Below are positions 15,775 to 32,240 of a stretch of 64,000 bases of DNA, piece after piece. The notes under the pieces are model-generated. The model was not told where the DNA came from, ran no database searches, and saw nothing but the letters and a program-made list of their open reading frames with translations. The stretch is taken from the NCBI RefSeq assembly GCF_024508335.1, contig NZ_CP101988.1, positions 1,178,001 to 1,242,000 of the forward strand, given 5' to 3'. The translations under genes were made by a program, and so were the position numbers. The DNA comes from Cellulomonas chengniuliangii. Lineage in GTDB: Bacteria; Actinomycetota; Actinomycetes; Actinomycetales; Cellulomonadaceae. Each line of letters opens with the position of its first letter. Positions within the stretch are counted from its first letter, which is position 1.

Positions 15775-16455
15775 GTGCCCCCCACGAACTCCGCATCGAA
15801 GCCCGAGCGCACCGGCCCCATCACCGTGATGATCGTCGACGACCATGAGGTGGTCCGACGCGGTATCGCCGAGGTGGTCGAGCGTGCCGACGGCATGACC
15901 GTCATCGCCGAGGCGGGCTCCGTCGCCGATGGCGTCCGCCGCGCGACCTTGGTCCAACCGCAGATCCTGCTGGTCGACCTGCAGCTGCCCGATGGCACGG
16001 GGATCGACCTCATCAACGCCGTGCGCAAGCTGCACCCGGACGTCCGCGCGATCGTGCTCACGTCCTTCGACGACGACGACGCGCTGACGGCGGCGCTCGA
16101 GGCCGGCGCCTCGGCCTACCTGCTCAAGAGTGTGCGCGGCGCGGAGATCACCGACGTGGTGCGCGCTGTCGCGTCGGGCCGCACGCTGCTCGACGAGCGG
16201 ACCGTGACTCGCCGGCGGGCGGGGCACGACGACCCCACGGAGAACCTCACGCCGAGCGAGATGAAGGTGCTCGACCTGATCGGCGAGGGCCTGTCGAACC
16301 GGGAGATCGCCGAGCGCCTCGGCGTCGCGGAGAAGACCGTCAAGAACCACATCACCTCGCTGCTCGCCAAGATGGGGCTGCAGCGTCGCACCCAGGTCGC
16401 CGCCTGGGTGTCGGCGCGCAAGCACAGCGGCTGGCGCGCCGAGACGGGCCGCTGA
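15775..16455 (+). CDS. NarL/DevR-type response regulator
   Basis: 226-aa transcription factor: receiver domain (about 16-135) with acidic pocket VDD, phospho-acceptor D68 in ILLVDLQLPDG and conserved lysine in YLLKSVRG; LuxR-type helix-turn-helix (about 155-215) with LTPSEMKVLDLIGEGLSNREIA and KTVKNHITSLLAKM. The overall pattern resembles DevR/DosR of mycobacteria. A possible -10 hexamer (TACGAT, 15764-15769) ends 5 nt before the GTG, so the mRNA may be leaderless. It faces the DevS-like kinase gene across a shared terminator, making it that kinase's likely partner. DevR identity inferred. Confidence 0.85.
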   Translation: MPPTNSASKPERTGPITVMIVDDHEVVRRGIAEVVERADGMTVIAEAGSVADGVRRATLVQPQILLVDLQLPDGTGIDLINAVRKLHPDVRAIVLTSFDDDDALTAALEAGASAYLLKSVRGAEITDVVRAVASGRTLLDERTVTRRRAGHDDPTENLTPSEMKVLDLIGEGLSNREIAERLGVAEKTVKNHITSLLAKMGLQRRTQVAAWVSARKHSGWRAETGR

Positions 16456-16515: not shown

Positions 16516-18219
16516 TCAGCCGAGCGGCGCCGACCAGCTCAGCAGCGTCCCCGCGCCGCTCGGGGAGACGCCCAGGCTGAACGCGCCGCCGTGCTGGCGG
16601 GCGCGTGCGGCCAGGTTGCCCGTGCCCGATCGACGGTCGCGCACGGCTGGCAGGCCGGACCCGTCGTCCTCGACCTCGACCAGCACCGTGCCGGTGGGGC
16701 CGGAGCCGCGCACCGACACGCGCACGGTGACGCCCGACGCGTGGGCGTGGCGGGCGGCGTTCGCCAACCCCTCGCGCACCACGGCGACGACGTCGTCGGT
16801 CAGGTCGGTGCCGACGCGGGCGTCGACCTGGTCCGCCTCGAGGTAGTCGCCGTCGGGCACCGGAACGTCGTCGAGCAAGACGACCAGGGACGGCGCGAAG
16901 CCCAGCCCGGTGCGGGCGAGGCTGGTCTCCCGGCGCAGCCGCTCCACGAGTCCGGTGGCGGCATCCGGGTCCCGCAGGGCGTAGACGATCTGACGGATCT
17001 GCCGCACTGAGCCGTCGACGTTGTCGAGCGCCTCCTCCACGATGCTCGTCAGCTCGCTGGGGTCGACGCCCCGCGCCGCGCGGCGGCGCACCGTCTCGAG
17101 CTGCATGCCCGTGGCGAAGAGCTGCTGGATGGCCAGGTCGTGCAGGTCCCGGGCGATGCGCTCGCGCTCGTCGAGCAGCGCCGCGACGTCCTGCGCGTGG
17201 CGGGCCTCGGCGAGGACGAAGGCCAGGGCAGCCTGGGAGGCGAACGACTCCGCGGTCACGAGGTCGCTCGGGTCGAACGTCGGGCTGCCGATGCGGCGCA
17301 GCAGGATCAGCACCCCCACCCCGCGCCCGGAGGTCTGCAGCGGGGCGAACAGGGCCGGCCCGAACGCGCGCATCGGCACCACCCGCACCACGCGCGACCT
17401 CGATAGGGACTCGACCAGCAAGCCGCGACCCTCGGTCATCACGGACCACGACCGGCCGTCGCGCGGCATGATCTCGCCGATCAGGCTGTCCGCGTTGTGG
17501 CCGTCGGCGAGCTCGATCATGAGCTCGCCGCCCATCCCGGGCAGCGCCAGGGCGGCGGTGTCGGCGTCTGCCACGTCGCGCGCCGTCGCGGCGATGTGCG
17601 CGAGCGCGTCCTCCTCGTCGACGCCCGAGAGCAGCATCGTGGTGATGTCCTGCCCGGCGCGCAGCCAGTGCTCCCGGCGCGCCGCCTCGGTGTAGAGCTG
17701 GGCGTTGGAGACGGCGACACCCGCGGCGGCGGCGAGCGCGACGACCACCGTGGCGTCGTCCTCGGTGAACCCGCTGGGCTTGTCGGAGAGGTAGAGGTAG
17801 CCGTACACCTGGTCGCGCACGCGCACGGCCGCGCCCAGGAACGAGCCCATGGGGGGATGCCCGGGCGGGAAGCCCTCGAACGCCGGGTGCTGGATGAGGT
17901 CGTCGAGCAGCAGGACTCCGGTGGCCGGGATCTTGCTCAGCACGCCGACACGGTGCGGCGGGTGCCCGAGCATCGCGGCGACCGCCGCGGGCACCCCGGT
18001 CTGCACGAAGGTCGTCGACGTGCCGCGCTTGTCGAGCACGTTGATGGCCCCGTACGCCGCGCCGGTGAGCTCGACGCTGACATGCACGAAACGCTCGAGC
18101 ACCCCGGTCAGGTCGAGGTCGCTCGCAACGGAGAGAACGGCGTTGAGCAGCTCCGTGAGGCCGTCGCCGGTCGGGGCGTCCTCGACTGCGGCGCCACCGC
18201 GGTTCGGGCGGTCGGTCAT
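16516..18219 (-). CDS. DevS/DosT-like GAF-GAF sensor histidine kinase
   Basis: Cytosolic kinase of 567 aa without membrane segments. Two GAF domains (about 30-175 and 195-340) precede a HisKA_3 dimerisation domain (DERERIARDLHDLAIQQLF, H360) and a HATPase domain with N box VVREGLANAARHAH, and DDGSGLP and GTGNLAARARQHGG. The first GAF has GHPPMGSFLGAAVRVRD; H121 is in the motif that holds the proximal heme histidine of M. tuberculosis DosS/DosT, so heme-based sensing of O2, NO or CO is plausible. The ATG overlaps the cydC stop by 4 nt, so it is the last gene of the cyd operon. Ligand specificity inferred. Confidence 0.88.
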   Translation of the reverse strand: MTDRPNRGGAAVEDAPTGDGLTELLNAVLSVASDLDLTGVLERFVHVSVELTGAAYGAINVLDKRGTSTTFVQTGVPAAVAAMLGHPPHRVGVLSKIPATGVLLLDDLIQHPAFEGFPPGHPPMGSFLGAAVRVRDQVYGYLYLSDKPSGFTEDDATVVVALAAAAGVAVSNAQLYTEAARREHWLRAGQDITTMLLSGVDEEDALAHIAATARDVADADTAALALPGMGGELMIELADGHNADSLIGEIMPRDGRSWSVMTEGRGLLVESLSRSRVVRVVPMRAFGPALFAPLQTSGRGVGVLILLRRIGSPTFDPSDLVTAESFASQAALAFVLAEARHAQDVAALLDERERIARDLHDLAIQQLFATGMQLETVRRRAARGVDPSELTSIVEEALDNVDGSVRQIRQIVYALRDPDAATGLVERLRRETSLARTGLGFAPSLVVLLDDVPVPDGDYLEADQVDARVGTDLTDDVVAVVREGLANAARHAHASGVTVRVSVRGSGPTGTVLVEVEDDGSGLPAVRDRRSGTGNLAARARQHGGAFSLGVSPSGAGTLLSWSAPLG

Positions 18220-20105
18220 TGTTCCTCCGGTGCCTCGTGCTCTCGTGCGAAGCCATCACGGTAGCCCGCATGCGAGGCCAGCAAATCCCCGTGGCTGCCG
18301 CGACCGGTCACGCGACCGCCCTCGACCACCAGGATCTCGTCTGCGGCGTCTAGCGGCGACAGGCGGTGCGTGACCACCACCACACCCCGGCGCGTGTCGT
18401 CGGAGCCCTGCGAGAGCAGGTCGCGCACCAGCCGGTCGGCGGTCTCGGCGTCGAGGTGCTCGGCTGGCTCGTCGACCAGGAGCAGCGGCGCGTGGGAGAG
18501 CAGGGCCCGCGCCAGCAGCAGGCGCCGGCGCTCGCCACCGGAGACGCTCTGCGCGTCCGGGCCGAGCTCGGTGGACACGCCGTCGGGCAGGGCCGCCAGC
18601 CACTGGCCGAGGCCCGCCCGCTCGAGCGCCGCCACGGCCTCCTCGGGCGTCACGTCGCCTCGGGACACGCGCAGGTTCTCCAGGACGGAGGTCTCGAAGA
18701 CGTGCGCGTCCTCGGAGGTGAGCACCACGCTGCGCGCGATCTCGTCGTGGGGGAGCCCGTCGAGGGGGAGGCCGCCGAGCTCGAGGCTGCCTCCCTGGCG
18801 GGGGATCAGGCCGGCGAGTGTCAGCAGCAGCGTGGTCTTCCCAGCGCCGCTGGGGCCGACCACCGCGATCGACCGACCGGGCCGCACGTCGAGGTCCAGC
18901 GCGTCGACGACCGGGGCCCGGCCGGGCCACCCGCACGCCAGGCCACGGGCGACCAGGTCCGTGGGCGGCGGGTCCTGCGGGGCGGAGGAGGCGGCGGGGG
19001 AGAGGTCTGGCTCCTCCGACAGCTCGACCGGGACGCCGCCGTCGGGCGCCGCGGAGTCGAGCAGCGACATGATGCGCCGGGCGGCGGCGCGCGAGCGCTG
19101 CAGCTGGATCGCCGCGGTGGGCAGCACGTTGACGGCCTCGAACGAGGCGAGCGGGGTCAGCACGATGACGGCGAGCTCCACCGGGGCCAACGCCCCCGAC
19201 TGCACGGCCGGCACGCCGAACAGCAGCGCGGCCAGCGTCGCGAGGCCTGTCGCGAGCGACCCGAGCAGCGCGCCCAGGGCAGCCGGGCGGGCTCCGGCGT
19301 CGGCGGCCGAGGCGAGCTCGCGGTCGGCCTCGCGCAGCGCGGAGAGCTCCTGGGGCGCGCGGCCCTGCACGGTCAGCGGCCCGGCGTCGTCCAGCAGGCC
19401 GAGGGCCACGGTGGACAGGGCGGCCCGGGCGTGCACGGCGCGCTGCTCGGTGGTGCGGGCGGCGCGGGCGGCGAGCCAGGGCGCCACCACGCCCGCCAGC
19501 AGCAGGCAGGCCGCGAGGCTCAGGCCCGCGGCGGGCAGGAACAGGGACATCGCGACGACGGTGCCCACGCCGAGCACCGCGGCGACCGCGATGGGCAGCA
19601 GCCCTCGCACGACGGCGTCGCCCACCGCGTCGACGTCTGCCCCCACGCGCGTCAGCAGGTCGCCGCGGCGCAGGCGCAGCGTCGCCTCGGGCCTGCCCAC
19701 CGCGAGGCGGCGGTACAGCGCGGTGCGGAGGTTCGCCATGCCGCGGAGCGCAACGTCATGGGAGGTCAGTCGCTCGACGTAGCGGAAGACCCCGCGGCCG
19801 ATGCCGAAGGCCCGCACCCCCACGGTCGCCACCGAGAGGGCCAGCACCGGGGGCATCTGCGACGCGCGGGCGATGAGCCAGGCGGACACCGCGGCCAGGG
19901 CCACGGCGCAGCCCAGGCCGAGGACGCCGAGCAGGACGGCCAGCGCCACCCGTGCCGGGCGCACTCCCAGCAGCGCCACCGCGCGCCACAGCGGGTCGTC
20001 GCTCCGGGCCCACCGGCTCTGCCGGCGGTCCGTGGCGGCGGCGCGAGAGGCGGGAAGCGTGGAGGGCGTGGGGGGGACGGTCGGGGCGGTGGTCGCGGCG
20101 GTCAT
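18216..20105 (-). CDS. cydC: CydC, thiol/heme ABC exporter subunit
   Basis: Fused permease-ATPase of 629 aa. With CydD it forms the exporter (cysteine/glutathione or heme-related) required to assemble cytochrome bd. An N-terminal ABC transmembrane domain (about 45-330) has FGIGRGVFRYVERLTSHD, a CydC hallmark. The C-terminal ATPase has Walker A GPSGAGKTT, signature SVSGGERRRL and Walker B LLLVDEPAEHLD. A low-complexity Pro/Ser/Asp linker joins the parts. It overlaps cydD by 4 nt upstream and the sensor kinase by 4 nt downstream. Confidence 0.93.
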   Translation of the reverse strand: MTAATTAPTVPPTPSTLPASRAAATDRRQSRWARSDDPLWRAVALLGVRPARVALAVLLGVLGLGCAVALAAVSAWLIARASQMPPVLALSVATVGVRAFGIGRGVFRYVERLTSHDVALRGMANLRTALYRRLAVGRPEATLRLRRGDLLTRVGADVDAVGDAVVRGLLPIAVAAVLGVGTVVAMSLFLPAAGLSLAACLLLAGVVAPWLAARAARTTEQRAVHARAALSTVALGLLDDAGPLTVQGRAPQELSALREADRELASAADAGARPAALGALLGSLATGLATLAALLFGVPAVQSGALAPVELAVIVLTPLASFEAVNVLPTAAIQLQRSRAAARRIMSLLDSAAPDGGVPVELSEEPDLSPAASSAPQDPPPTDLVARGLACGWPGRAPVVDALDLDVRPGRSIAVVGPSGAGKTTLLLTLAGLIPRQGGSLELGGLPLDGLPHDEIARSVVLTSEDAHVFETSVLENLRVSRGDVTPEEAVAALERAGLGQWLAALPDGVSTELGPDAQSVSGGERRRLLLARALLSHAPLLLVDEPAEHLDAETADRLVRDLLSQGSDDTRRGVVVVTHRLSPLDAADEILVVEGGRVTGRGSHGDLLASHAGYRDGFAREHEAPEEQ

Positions 20106-21835
20106 GCGGCCACCTCCTCACCGGCGCGCACGGCATCGTCGACGTCAGCGGGCCGGACCTCGACGACCTGGTCGGCCAGGGTCGTCAGCGACGCGCGGTG
20201 CGCGACCAGCAGGACGGTCCGACCGTCGCGTCGCAGCGCCTCGACGGTCCGGAGCACGACGTCCTCCGAGGCGGCGTCCAGGTGGGCGGTGGGCTCGTCG
20301 AGCACCACCAGGGGGGCGTCGGAGAGCAGCGCGCGGGTCAGCGCGACCCGCTGGCGCTGCCCCACGGACAGCCCGCTCCCGCCGCGGCCCAGGGGCGTGT
20401 CCCAGCCCTCCGGCAGCGCGGCCACCACCGCGTCGAGCCCGGTGAGGGCCGCAGCCCGGTCCCGGGCGCTCGTGCGGGCGTCGCTCGCCCGGCTGTCGCC
20501 CGCGCCCGTGTGGGGCAGCGCGCCGCCCCACACGACCTCGTCGACCGTGCCCGGCTCGAGCACCGGCCGTTGCGGCAGCCACGACACTTGGCTCCAGTAG
20601 GTGGCGAGATCGACGTCGGCCAGTGGGAGCGCGTCACCGACGGCGGGGATCACCTCGACGGCGCCCGTGTCCGGACGGAGCAGGCCGAGCAGCACCGACA
20701 CCGCCGTGGTCTTGCCGCCCCCGCTGGCGCCGGTGAGGGCCAGCACCTGCCCGGGGCGCAGCTCGACGTCGAGCCCCGCTGGGGCCAGGACGTCGCGTCC
20801 AGGGGCGCGCACGCTCACGTCCCGCAGCCTGATGGCTGCCGTCCGCAGGTCGGGGCACGGCTGGGAGCCCTGCTCGGGCAGCGGGGTCTCCAGGACCTCG
20901 AAGACCTGCTCCGCGGCGGCGACCCCGTCGGTCGACGCGTGGAAGTGGGCGCCCACCTGACGCAGCGGCAGGTACACCTCGGGGGCCAGGACGAGCACCG
21001 TCAGGCCGGTGACCAGGTCCATCTGGCCGTAGACCAGCCGCATGCCGATCGCGACGGCCACCAGCGCGACGGCGAGCGTGGTGAGCAGCTCGAGGACCAT
21101 CCCGGACAGGAACGCGATCCGCAGCGTGCCCATCGTGGCCCGGCGGTGCGCCCGGCCCAGGTCGGCGACCCGCCCCGCGGCCCCGCGCTCCCGGCCGAAG
21201 CCGCGCAGGGTGGGCAGCCCGGCGAGCAGGTCGAGCACCTGGGAGCCGAGCCGCTGCATGACCCGCAGCCCGCGCTCCGACCGGCCTTGCGTGAGCCGGC
21301 CGACCAGCACCATGAACAGCGGGACCAGCGGGATGGTGCCCACCACGATGGCCGCGGAGATCCAGTCCAGGCCCAGCACCACGAGCACTGTCGCCGGCGT
21401 CACTGTCGCCGCCAGCACCAGCTGGGGGAGGTACTTGACGAAGTAGGGCTCGAGGTTCTCCAGCCCTCGCGTCACGAGCGTGACCACCCGAGGGCCGGCG
21501 CCGCCCGCGAGCCAGCGCGGGCCGAGGGCCGTGGCCCGCTCGACGACCTGCGCGCGGAGCTCGCCGATCGCACGGGTCGCGGCCCGGTGCGCGTACCGCT
21601 CCTGGGCGCCCGCGACGAGGGCGCGCGCCGCCACCACCGCGACGAGCCAGCCGATCAGCGGAGCCAGCTCGGCCAGGTCGGCGCCGTCCTGGACGGCGGA
21701 GCCCAGCGCCTGGCCGAGCAGCAACGCCTGGGCGATGACCAGGCCTGCGACGGCCAGGCCCAGCACCACCGTGAGGCCGACGTACCGCCGTGCCGCGCGC
21801 GCGTGGCGCAGCAGCCGGGGGTCGAGTGGCTTCAC
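20102..21835 (-). CDS. cydD: CydD, thiol/heme ABC exporter subunit
   Basis: 577-aa half-transporter partner of CydC. ABC transmembrane domain (about 15-315) includes the CydD motif YFVKYLPQL and LLAGLPTLRGFGRE; the nucleotide domain has Walker A GASGGGKTT, LSVGQRQRVALTRALL (signature variant LSVGQ) and LVVLDEPTAHLD. An insertion rich in Ser/Asp/Arg near residue 460 is unusual but in a surface position. GTG start, 13 nt after cydB. Confidence 0.93.
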   Translation of the reverse strand: MKPLDPRLLRHARAARRYVGLTVVLGLAVAGLVIAQALLLGQALGSAVQDGADLAELAPLIGWLVAVVAARALVAGAQERYAHRAATRAIGELRAQVVERATALGPRWLAGGAGPRVVTLVTRGLENLEPYFVKYLPQLVLAATVTPATVLVVLGLDWISAAIVVGTIPLVPLFMVLVGRLTQGRSERGLRVMQRLGSQVLDLLAGLPTLRGFGRERGAAGRVADLGRAHRRATMGTLRIAFLSGMVLELLTTLAVALVAVAIGMRLVYGQMDLVTGLTVLVLAPEVYLPLRQVGAHFHASTDGVAAAEQVFEVLETPLPEQGSQPCPDLRTAAIRLRDVSVRAPGRDVLAPAGLDVELRPGQVLALTGASGGGKTTAVSVLLGLLRPDTGAVEVIPAVGDALPLADVDLATYWSQVSWLPQRPVLEPGTVDEVVWGGALPHTGAGDSRASDARTSARDRAAALTGLDAVVAALPEGWDTPLGRGGSGLSVGQRQRVALTRALLSDAPLVVLDEPTAHLDAASEDVVLRTVEALRRDGRTVLLVAHRASLTTLADQVVEVRPADVDDAVRAGEEVAA

Positions 21836-21848
21836 AGCCCGACGCGCC

Positions 21849-22973
21849 TCACGACGACGAGCCGCCCGATCGCGAGCCCGAGGCCACGGGGCCGTCGTCC
21901 GTGGCCGCTCCGTGGTGCGAGCCGCTGCCGTTGTCCGAGCCCCAGGCGGCGGCCTTCACACGGGCGAAGGTCAGGCCGATCGAGTCGGGGATCTGCTCCG
22001 ACGAGATGCGCTTGCGGAACACCCAGTACGTCCAGCCCTGGTAGAGCAGGACGACGGGCACCAGGCACACCGCGACCCACGTCATCACCGTGAGCGTGTA
22101 CGACGACGACGAGGCGTTGTCGATGGTCAGCGAGTTGGCGGGGTTGAAGGCGGGCATCACGTCGGGGTACATCGAGCCGAAGATCAGCACCACCGCGGCG
22201 ACCAGCGTCACGGCCGAGGCGATGAACGCCCAGCCCTCACGGCGGGCGCGGGTGGCCAGGACGAGCGCCACCAGGGCGACCGCGGCCACGGCGACGGCGG
22301 CCCACGTCCACGCCACGGAGTACGCGACCTGCGCCCAGATCGCCCAGGCGGCGGCGACGACGAGCGTGACCACGGACAGCCGGGAGGCGAGCGCGCCGGC
22401 GCGCCGGCGCACCTCGCCGTCGGACTTCAGGGCCAGGAACACGGCGCCGTGCGTGGCGAAGAGCAGCGCGGTGGTGACGCCGCCCACGAGGGCGAACGGG
22501 TTGAGGAGTGCGAAGAACCCGCCGACGTACTGGTGGCTCGCGTCGAGCTCGACGCCGCGCACCAGGTTCGCGAACGCGACGCCCCACAGGATCGCGGGGA
22601 CCCAGGACCCGATGGTCAGGGCCCAGTCCGCGCGGTTGCGCCAGGCGTCGTCGTCGATCTTGCCGCGCCACTCGAAGGCGACGACCCGGACGATCAGGGC
22701 CAGCAGGATCAGCAGCAGCGGCAGGTAGAAGCCGGAGAACATCGTGGCGTACCACTCGGGGAAGGCGGCGAACGTCGCGCCGCCCGCCGTCAGCAGCCAC
22801 ACCTCGTTGCCGTCCCACACCGGGCCGATGGTGTTGATCATGACGCGACGCTCCTTGTCGTCGCGCCCGAGCAGCTTGAGCAGCATGCCCACCCCGAAGT
22901 CGAACCCCTCGAGGACGAGGTAGCCGGCCCAGAGCAGGGCGATCAGCAGGAACCAGACTGTCGTGAGCTCCAT
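21849..22973 (-). CDS. cydB: Cytochrome bd quinol oxidase subunit II
   Basis: 374-aa integral membrane subunit of the bd-type terminal oxidase. The N-terminus LTTVWFLLIALLWAGYLVLEGFD begins the first membrane helix; GMLLKLLGRDDKERRVMINTIGPVWDGNEVWLL is the best conserved CydB block. About eight to nine hydrophobic helices follow, and the C-terminus is a Ser/Gly-rich cytosolic tail. It stabilises the heme-bearing CydA. Follows cydA by 10 nt. Confidence 0.96.
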   Translation of the reverse strand: MELTTVWFLLIALLWAGYLVLEGFDFGVGMLLKLLGRDDKERRVMINTIGPVWDGNEVWLLTAGGATFAAFPEWYATMFSGFYLPLLLILLALIVRVVAFEWRGKIDDDAWRNRADWALTIGSWVPAILWGVAFANLVRGVELDASHQYVGGFFALLNPFALVGGVTTALLFATHGAVFLALKSDGEVRRRAGALASRLSVVTLVVAAAWAIWAQVAYSVAWTWAAVAVAAVALVALVLATRARREGWAFIASAVTLVAAVVLIFGSMYPDVMPAFNPANSLTIDNASSSSYTLTVMTWVAVCLVPVVLLYQGWTYWVFRKRISSEQIPDSIGLTFARVKAAAWGSDNGSGSHHGAATDDGPVASGSRSGGSSS

Positions 22974-22983
22974 GACTCCTGCC

Positions 22984-24471
22984 TCAGTACGCGAACGACA
23001 GCGGCTTGTCGGCCGCGTCGCCGCTGTGGTCGTCGGGTCGGTGGTTGTCAGGGCTGTCGGGGCTCGGGTCGTGCTCGGTGTCGGCCACGCCCTCGACCGC
23101 GAAGCGGTGCATGAGCTTGTACCAGATGACCGCGAGGACCCCGTAGAGCGCCGTGAAGGCGACCATCGAGATGATCACGGAGGTCGGGCTCACCACCTCG
23201 GAGACACCGCGCGCGGTGAGCAGCCACACCCCGTCCACGCCGGTCGGGTTGGGGGCCACCACCCAGGGCTGACGGCCCATCTCGGTGAAGATCCAGCCGA
23301 ACGAGCTCGCCAGGAACGGCATGGGGATCGCGGCGATCGCGAGTCGCGAGAACCAGACGTTGTCGGTGACGCGGCCCTTGCGGGTCAGCCACAGCGACGC
23401 GGCGGCGAGCGCGGCCGATCCGACCGCCAGGCCGATCATCAGGCGGAAGCTCCAGTAGGTGATGGCCAGGTCGGGCGTGTAGTCGACGCCCTCGCCGTAC
23501 AGCTCCTCGTACCGCTCCTGCAGCTGGTTGACGCCCTCGAGGTGCGCGGTGAAGTCGTTCGAGGCGAGGAACGAGGTGACGCCGGGCAGCTCGATCAGGT
23601 GGGTGACCCCGTCGCAGTCGGCGTTGATGTCGCCGATCGCCAGGATCGAGAAGGCGGCGCCGTCGGTGCTCTCGCACAGGGCCTCGGCCGCGGCCATCTT
23701 CATCGGCTGCTGCTCGAACATGAGCTTCGCCTGGATGTCGCCGGACAGGCCCAGCCCCACGCCGGAGATGAGCATCGTCACCATGCCGAGCACGACCGCG
23801 GGTCGGTAGACCTCCCGCGCCTTCTCGGCCTGCCCGTTGCGGACCAGGCGGACCATCCACCAGGCGGCGATGCCGGCGACGAAGGTGCCGGCGGTGAGCC
23901 ACGCGGCGGTGATGGTGTGCGGGAACGCTGCGAGCAGGGTGCTGTTGGTGAGCACCGCCCACACGTCGACCATCTCCGCACGGCCCGTCTCGAGGTTGAA
24001 CACGGTGCCGACGGGGTGCTGCATCCACGAGTTCGCGGCCAGGATGAAGTAGGCCGACAAGTTGGTGGCGATGGCCACGGCCCAGATGCACGCGAGGTGG
24101 ATCTTCTTGGGCAGCTTGTCCCAGCCGAAGATCCACAGCCCCAGGAACGTCGACTCGACGAAGAAGGCGGCCAGGGCCTCCATCGCCAGCGGGGCGCCGA
24201 AGACGTCGCCGACGAAGCGCGAGTACTCGCTCCAGTTCATGCCGAACTGGAACTCCTGGACGATGCCGGTGGCGACGCCGATCGCGAAGTTGATCAGCAG
24301 CAGCTTCCCGAAGAACTTGGTGAGGCGCAGCCAGCGCTCGTTGCCAGTGCGGACCCAGAAGGTCTGCATCAGGGCCACGAGAGGGGCGAGGCCGATCGTC
24401 AACGGGACGAAGATGAAGTGGTAGACGGTGGTGATGCCGAACTGCCACCTGGCCAGGTCGAGGGCTTCCAC
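22984..24471 (-). CDS. cydA: Cytochrome bd quinol oxidase subunit I
   Basis: Heme-bearing subunit of the high-affinity oxygen reductase. 495 aa. Heme ligands can be seen: His in VYHFIFVPLTIGLAP (b595 side), His in AFPHTITAAW and Met in EMGRQPW (heme b558). FFVESTFLGLWIFGWDKL carries the conserved glutamates of the proton path. The Q-loop region contains QPMKMAAAEAL and is of the short type. GTG start with GGAG 8 nt upstream. First gene of the cydABDC-kinase operon; a DevR-like palindrome lies about 90 nt upstream, fitting induction by hypoxia. Confidence 0.96.
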   Translation of the reverse strand: MEALDLARWQFGITTVYHFIFVPLTIGLAPLVALMQTFWVRTGNERWLRLTKFFGKLLLINFAIGVATGIVQEFQFGMNWSEYSRFVGDVFGAPLAMEALAAFFVESTFLGLWIFGWDKLPKKIHLACIWAVAIATNLSAYFILAANSWMQHPVGTVFNLETGRAEMVDVWAVLTNSTLLAAFPHTITAAWLTAGTFVAGIAAWWMVRLVRNGQAEKAREVYRPAVVLGMVTMLISGVGLGLSGDIQAKLMFEQQPMKMAAAEALCESTDGAAFSILAIGDINADCDGVTHLIELPGVTSFLASNDFTAHLEGVNQLQERYEELYGEGVDYTPDLAITYWSFRLMIGLAVGSAALAAASLWLTRKGRVTDNVWFSRLAIAAIPMPFLASSFGWIFTEMGRQPWVVAPNPTGVDGVWLLTARGVSEVVSPTSVIISMVAFTALYGVLAVIWYKLMHRFAVEGVADTEHDPSPDSPDNHRPDDHSGDAADKPLSFAY

Positions 24472-24922
24472 GGGATGACTCCGTCACGTGCTTGGCTACG
24501 GGGGTTCGGGCCGACGCTCCCTGTCCGAACGGTAGGTGGGCGTGGGCGGGGCACCCGGGACCTAGGTCCCGGGCCATTGCGCGCACACCGCGAGCCCGGT
24601 TCCATGGTGCACCCGCCGTGTCGCCTCCCCGTCTCAAGGCTCCTGTGCGATACTGACAGCGGATTCCAGGGCGACCACACCGTTCTGATTCCGTGACCGT
24701 GCTCGCAGTACCTAGCGTGTCGAGCTCGCCAGGCGCCGCCGGATGTGACCGATCCCCACCGTGGGGCTCTCGAACGACATGCTGGCTGGCGATGGCGCTG
24801 ACCGCGGTGCAGCAGCCGCCACCGACGACTTCCGTCGCAGCGCACAGCGCGAGCGACGACCGACCGCCCCTGGGGCGCCGAGGAGTGTGGCCGGCTCCGA
24901 GGGGCATGCAGGAGCACCACGC
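24472..24922. other. Divergent cydA-rne intergenic region
   Basis: About 450 nt between the divergent cydA and RNase E genes. It contains the DevR-like palindrome (24554-24573) on the cydA side. The rne side may be a long 5' leader, with weak -10-like hexamers (GATACT near 24648, TACCTA near 24709) but no convincing -35. In-frame codons upstream of the chosen rne start exist but look unconserved. Confidence 0.5.
24554..24573. promoter_or_regulatory. DevR/DosR-type operator upstream of cydA
   Basis: Perfect 20-bp palindrome CCCGGGACCTAGGTCCCGGG centred about 92 nt upstream of the cydA start. The core GGGAC-N4-GTCCC matches the mycobacterial DosR box consensus TTSGGGACTWWRGTCCCSAA at its conserved positions. 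The matching kinase and regulator are encoded at the far end of the same module. Function inferred. Confidence 0.7.
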
Positions 24923-32226: not shown

Positions 32227-32240
32227 GGGACCCGCGTCCC
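32227..32240. promoter_or_regulatory. Second GGGAC-N4-GTCCC palindrome (weak DevR-like box)
   Basis: GGGAC CCGC GTCCC shares the half-sites and spacing of the box at cydA but has a GC-only centre. It is about 120 nt upstream of the M20 amidohydrolase in the 207-nt gap after proB. Could be chance in GC-rich DNA. Confidence 0.25.

Follow-up and report, generated by a model that had tools for sequence, protein, structure and literature searches.

In the window, the 64-kb stretch of DNA analysed here, a palindrome upstream of cydA is very probably the operator of an adjacent DevR-like response regulator, and in the favoured reading the DevS/DevR-like pair would activate the cydABDC-devS operon as oxygen falls.

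Gene organization around cydA

The operon is encoded on the minus strand. The cydA (22984..24471; Pfam Cyt_bd_oxida_I, 3.8e-160) and cydB (21849..22973; Cyt_bd_oxida_II, 2.2e-113) genes encode subunits I and II of the cytochrome bd oxidase, and are followed by cydD (20102..21835) and cydC (18216..20105), which encode ABC exporter subunits with ABC_membrane and ABC_tran matches, cydD being named by gene order. The cydC gene overlaps by 4 nt with cydD and by 4 nt with devS (16516..18219, minus strand), the last gene of the operon, which encodes a DevS-like sensor histidine kinase (GAF, GAF, HisKA_3, HATPase). The gene for the DevR-like NarL/FixJ response regulator is located on the plus strand (15775..16455), convergent to devS. 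On the other side of the operon, the open reading frame of a divergent RNase E/G-like gene begins at 24761, and the palindrome lies between cydA and that gene.

The nearest named CydA relatives are from Cellulomonas, with 83% and 77% identity, and several genera share the order of cydABDC and kinase with the regulator convergent to it. Pseudonocardiales loci (L064, L071, L085) have the same operon and an opposite-strand DevR-like gene with another sensor, a single-GAF kinase that lacks the DevS heme motif. The same operon with an opposite-strand DevR-like gene was also seen in a Dermabacter metagenome-assembled genome (L069), the kinase of which has no Pfam GAF match.

The palindrome upstream of cydA

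The sequence CCCGGGACCTAGGTCCCGGG at 24554-24573 is palindromic over its full length, with 10/10 dyad base pairs matching, and its centre is situated 92 nt upstream of the GTG start of cydA (24471, minus strand). The initial annotation had described a perfect 20-bp palindrome with the core GGGAC-N4-GTCCC about 92 nt upstream of cydA, and the coordinates, the dyad and the distance were all confirmed. The predicted DevR-type operator, GGGACCTAGGTCCC, occupies 24557-24570 within this palindrome, with no strand assigned.

At 75% G+C, a perfect 20-bp palindrome is no great rarity and proves little by itself; 3 were seen in the window, as compared with 0.53 expected from the base composition. The bare core GGGACN4GTCCC was rejected as a genome marker, as its count, 15 places in the 3.57-Mb genome as compared with 20.5 expected under a first-order model built from the window, is at the chance level. 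With an AT-rich centre (GGGACYWWRGTCCC), the motif was found at 4 places in the same 3.57 Mb, including the site before cydA, as compared with 0.11 expected. These counts point to GGGAC-C/T-W-W-A/G-GTCCC, rather than GGGAC-N4-GTCCC, as the telling motif, and the cydA site stands above chance because of its AT-rich centre, its place before cydA and its conservation there. A further core match in the window, GGGACCCGCGTCCC at 32227-32240, has a G+C-rich centre and is probably due to chance.

No convincing Rex operator was found within 300 nt of cydA, where the best match to the Rex operator consensus, TGTGAAN4TTCACA, had 4 mismatches. The best candidate for a CRP operator within the same distance had 2 mismatches at -236, far from the promoter, and is a possible but unconvincing site.

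Conservation of the site and its co-occurrence with DevR-like genes

Among the 80 named cydA loci, the exact core was present within 300 nt upstream of cydA in 16, or 17 counting the window. Within the genus, the site was exact in 5 of the 6 other genomes, and the sixth (L099) carried AGGAC...GTCCT at the same place and distance, both outer bases having changed together, one per arm.

In the order-wide survey, 198 genomes were searched, 183 of which had cydA, and 130 of these 183 were examined (in listing order, with second copies omitted). A DevR-like gene was defined as a match at E 1e-38, the top candidates being scored, and absence as none at that threshold. Sites were scored as GGGACNWWNGTCCC located 20-170 nt upstream of cydA, with up to one or up to two mismatches allowed. 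Under the one-mismatch limit, they were found in 68 of the 109 genomes with a DevR-like gene, whereas none were found in the 21 genomes without one; with at most two mismatches, the corresponding numbers were 83/109 and 1/21. The compared genomes are related, and Fisher values on this co-occurrence are therefore no true probabilities. When the genomes were divided by the strength of the DevR match, a site within the one-mismatch limit was present in 52/80 at 200 bits or more and in 16/29 with weaker matches. When divided by the location of devR, the site was present in 42/60 genomes with a linked and convergent gene and in 26/49 with the gene elsewhere or on another contig. At least one site with at most one mismatch lay within 250 nt of cydA in 15 of the 19 families.

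The order of the letters in the half-site was also specific. GGGAC was found in 52/80 loci with strong DevR matches, whereas no other order of these letters, of 19 compared, exceeded 2/80, and dinucleotide shuffles over 20 rounds gave a mean of 0.25. The first centre base of the site was C in 79% of the sites, in contrast to T in the mycobacterial DosR box consensus.

The site was missing from a part of the genomes with a linked convergent DevR, 18/60 at no more than one mismatch and 13/60 at no more than two (20-170 nt). Ten of these 13 genomes belong to a single family, f3 (e.g. G081, G205, G218, G231, G166). In this family DevR is linked and the box is mostly absent, so that the cyd-linked DevR of these genomes must act via another site or have no action on cydA.

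Promoter geometry

A predicted -10 hexamer of the cydA promoter, TACCGT (24529..24534, minus strand), starts 29.5 nt after the palindrome centre, and transcription of cydA would be expected to start near 24522. The phasing was analysed for the 62 sites with at most one mismatch, a DevR-like gene in the genome, and a start codon 55 nt or more away. With the palindrome as the only anchor, TANNNT started between +29.5 and +32.5 from the centre in 56/62 sites (25, 14, 10 and 7 at 29.5, 30.5, 31.5 and 32.5, respectively), and the 43 other tabulated offsets held 9 TANNNT matches in total. From this fixed spacing, the operator would lie across the -35 position, at about -42 relative to the expected start. 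An overlap between the start-proximal DevR site and the -35 element is likewise described for the target promoters studied in PMC3029386.

In the set of named loci, which may share species with the order-wide one, the phased TANNNT was found in 12 of the 29 sites having no more than one mismatch, and in 0/7 of the Pseudonocardiales sites. The operator-promoter model, in which the dyad is followed by TANNNT 29-32 nt on, could be used for finding the regulon.

The DevR-like regulator and the DevS-like kinase

The regulator has a receiver domain (Response_reg, 4e-22) and a GerE/LuxR-type helix-turn-helix domain (GerE, 4.5e-17), which is the NarL/FixJ architecture. Its best match among solved proteins is M. 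tuberculosis DevR (3c3w; E 7.2e-50), followed by VraR (4.2e-38), and ChrA, a relative of HrrA, is a weaker match than DevR (9.9e-29). The own genome holds 13 further matches spanning both regulator domains, and the next DevR-like protein in it is 41% identical.

In the alignment, D54, K104, K179, K182, and N183 of DevR all have their equivalents in the window regulator. The equivalents of K179, K182, and N183, the DNA contacts of DevR, were present in 23/23 aligned regulators, and those of D54 and K104 in 22/23, the remaining one being a fragment. VraR has both lysines but T at the position of N183, which is therefore the discriminating residue. Asp54 of DevR is described as the phospho-acceptor (PMC3029386).

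For the kinase, the Pfam domains are GAF_2 (in two stretches), HisKA_3, and HATPase_c, in this order, and the best solved relatives are DevS GAF-A chains (E 1.4e-33). Two other DevS matches in the same genome cover the kinase part only. The numbering of DevS residues was set on E87, a residue that differs between PDB chains, and the window kinase has Asn at this position. Equivalents of H149, the proximal heme ligand of DevS GAF-A, and of Y171 are found in 13/21 aligned kinases, the window kinase among them. The retained ligand histidine supports the prediction that the window kinase is a DevS-like heme-GAF sensor, as the initial annotation had called it. The contact residues in 23/23 regulators, as compared with the heme-pocket pair in 13/21 kinases, indicate that the contacts of the regulator are more constant than the sensor.

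A feature of DevR/DosR regulators is autoregulation through boxes upstream of devR. For the devR-like gene of the window, no box was found, the best match within 250 nt having 4 mismatches. Therefore, autoregulation of this devR is not claimed here, and such autoregulation is not treated as essential to the DevR family.

Other sites in the genome

The other three exact sites of the GGGACYWWRGTCCC type are located before nuoA, before nrdD, and before a 200-aa open reading frame that has no Pfam match. The box before nuoA (L113:8187-8200, genome 3028186) has its centre at -110, and that upstream of nrdD, which encodes an anaerobic ribonucleotide reductase (Pfam NRDD, 4e-187), lies at L111:4811-4824 (genome 3097810). 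The box before the 200-aa frame, GGGACTTAAGTCCC, lies at L112:3998-4011 (genome 2690997). TANNNT at a cydA-like spacing was found at 0/3 of these sites, where looser hexamers are present.

For nrdD, 26 family loci were collected, one of which had no upstream sequence, leaving 25 to be counted. Allowing one mismatch, the site was seen within 400 nt of the query start in 11/25, the own genome included. Several of these nrdD loci have dyads further downstream that resemble NrdR boxes. For nuoA, the site was found in 3/30 family loci, namely the own genome and the two closest species, and in 0 of the other 27; nuoA was consequently rejected as a widely conserved target.

When one mismatch was allowed, 13 sites were found in the genome, as compared with 7 for the backward control. 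About half of these sites may therefore be due to chance, and the adjoining genes are leads only. One such box (L110:2332-2345) lies ~95 nt upstream of a gene for a molybdopterin oxidoreductase, which has MoaA-type (Mob_synth_C) and MoaE neighbours, and another (L109:2197-2210) separates an open reading frame from a divergent MFS gene, near which a formate/nitrite transporter gene is located. A further one-mismatch box is located beside a gene with an AlaDh/PNT domain (L106).

Discussion

We infer the following course of events. When oxygen falls, or when NO or CO is present, the heme-GAF kinase DevS would phosphorylate DevR. A DevR dimer would then bind to the dyad overlapping the -35 of the cydA promoter and would bring RNA polymerase to the -10 hexamer (24534-24529). 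The predicted output is more of the high-affinity oxidase CydAB, the maturation exporter CydDC, and DevS. DevS would be included because its gene closes the cyd operon, which amounts to a putative positive feedback on the kinase and not on the regulator. The box before nrdD, and that before nuoA in the closest species, may tie other low-oxygen genes to DevR. If the circuit is true, it gives a simple answer to the question of how many non-mycobacterial actinobacteria switch to high-affinity respiration, and offers harmless species for the study of DevR activation.

The initial annotation had suggested a DosR-type operator within a self-contained hypoxia circuit of heme sensor, regulator, operator and high-affinity oxidase. 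The prediction of the operator is supported by the conservation of the site, the co-occurrence with DevR-like genes, the fixed spacing to the -10-like hexamer, and the key residues retained in the adjacent regulator. The circuit is supported as far as the DevS/DevR-like pair, the operator and cyd are concerned, whereas "self-contained" was an overstatement, as devR is without a box and nrdD, together with nuoA in the closest species, has one.

Another regulator of the NarL/FixJ type, such as a heme-responsive one resembling HrrA or ChrA, might bind to the site, with the adjacent DevR-like protein controlling something else. We consider this unlikely: the 13 further genome matches with both regulator domains provide candidates, HrrA of Corynebacterium glutamicum is described as binding and activating cydAB in response to heme (PMC7337898), and family f3 has a linked DevR yet no box, but the site tracks the DevR-like gene (68/109 versus 0/21), a DevR-like regulator is encoded convergent to the operon, and this regulator has the contact triplet of DevR, which is its best solved relative (7.2e-50), ChrA reaching only 9.9e-29.

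It is very improbable that DevR represses cydA from the site, or that the site belongs to the divergent RNase E/G-like gene (open reading frame from 24761). Dyads can repress, and this one does lie between two divergent genes; however, the phased -10 faces cydA and would centre the site at ~-42, as reported for DevR-activated promoters (PMC3029386). In addition, counted from the cydA side alone, the site occurs upstream of this gene in 15 families. As for a chance palindrome in G+C-rich DNA, to which we give almost no credence, the 3 perfect 20-bp palindromes in 64 kb where 0.53 were expected, and the unenriched bare core, would allow it, whereas the conservation, the permutation control, the co-occurrence with DevR and the phasing of the -10 argue against it. 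Activation of cydABDC-devS by the adjacent DevR-like regulator is thus the reading adopted below.

Like the DevS-DevR (DosS/DosT-DosR) system of M. tuberculosis, the system activating cydABDC-devS would comprise a kinase of the heme-GAF type and a NarL-type regulator whose phosphorylation and DNA-contact residues are those of DevR. M. tuberculosis DevR likewise has a GGGAC...GTCCC operator that overlaps the -35 position, a feature predicted here from the sequence. The two systems differ in that the pair is apparently connected here to cydABDC and nrdD, with the kinase within the cyd operon and the regulator convergent to it. We rate the present system as consisting of DevR/DosR parts in an apparently new wiring.

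In the available texts, the control of mycobacterial cydAB is ascribed to SenX3-RegX3 and CRP (PMC7719681), and cydAB of M. smegmatis is described as dependent on PrrAB (PMC6898941). OsdK-OsdR of Streptomyces coelicolor, a non-mycobacterial DevR orthologue, is described as having an overlapping regulon and the palindrome AGGGCCGATCGGCCCT (PMC5069765), and the main text of that paper, in the form available, contains no word beginning with cyd, cytochrome, nuo or nrd. In S. coelicolor, cydABDC is likewise reported to be under redox control, exerted by Rex (PMC2799521). Rex is an NADH/NAD+ sensing repressor; in the 300 nt next to the present cydA, no sequence came closer to a Rex site than 4 mismatches. 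HrrSA of Corynebacterium glutamicum is also a two-component regulator that is reported to bind upstream of cydABDC and to activate cydAB; its signal is heme, and its targets number more than 200 (PMC7337898). Among the matches listed from the open-access literature, none, in its available text, described a box of the DevR type upstream of cyd in this group of bacteria.

A small tree of the regulators bears on the origin of this wiring. A cyd-linked DevS-DevR pair controlling the bd oxidase could conceivably reflect what this two-component family did earlier, or does more widely, in Actinomycetota, with the tuberculosis dormancy regulon derived after devR had left the cyd locus, although we hold this to be doubtful and the tree evidence for it to be suggestive only. 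DevR/DosR is the dormancy regulator of mycobacteria. In the tree, for which all regulators but M. tuberculosis DevR were sampled from loci around cydA and the outgroup was distant, the deepest split of the ingroup has cyd-linked convergent regulators on either side, and M. tuberculosis DevR is nested in one of these two sides.
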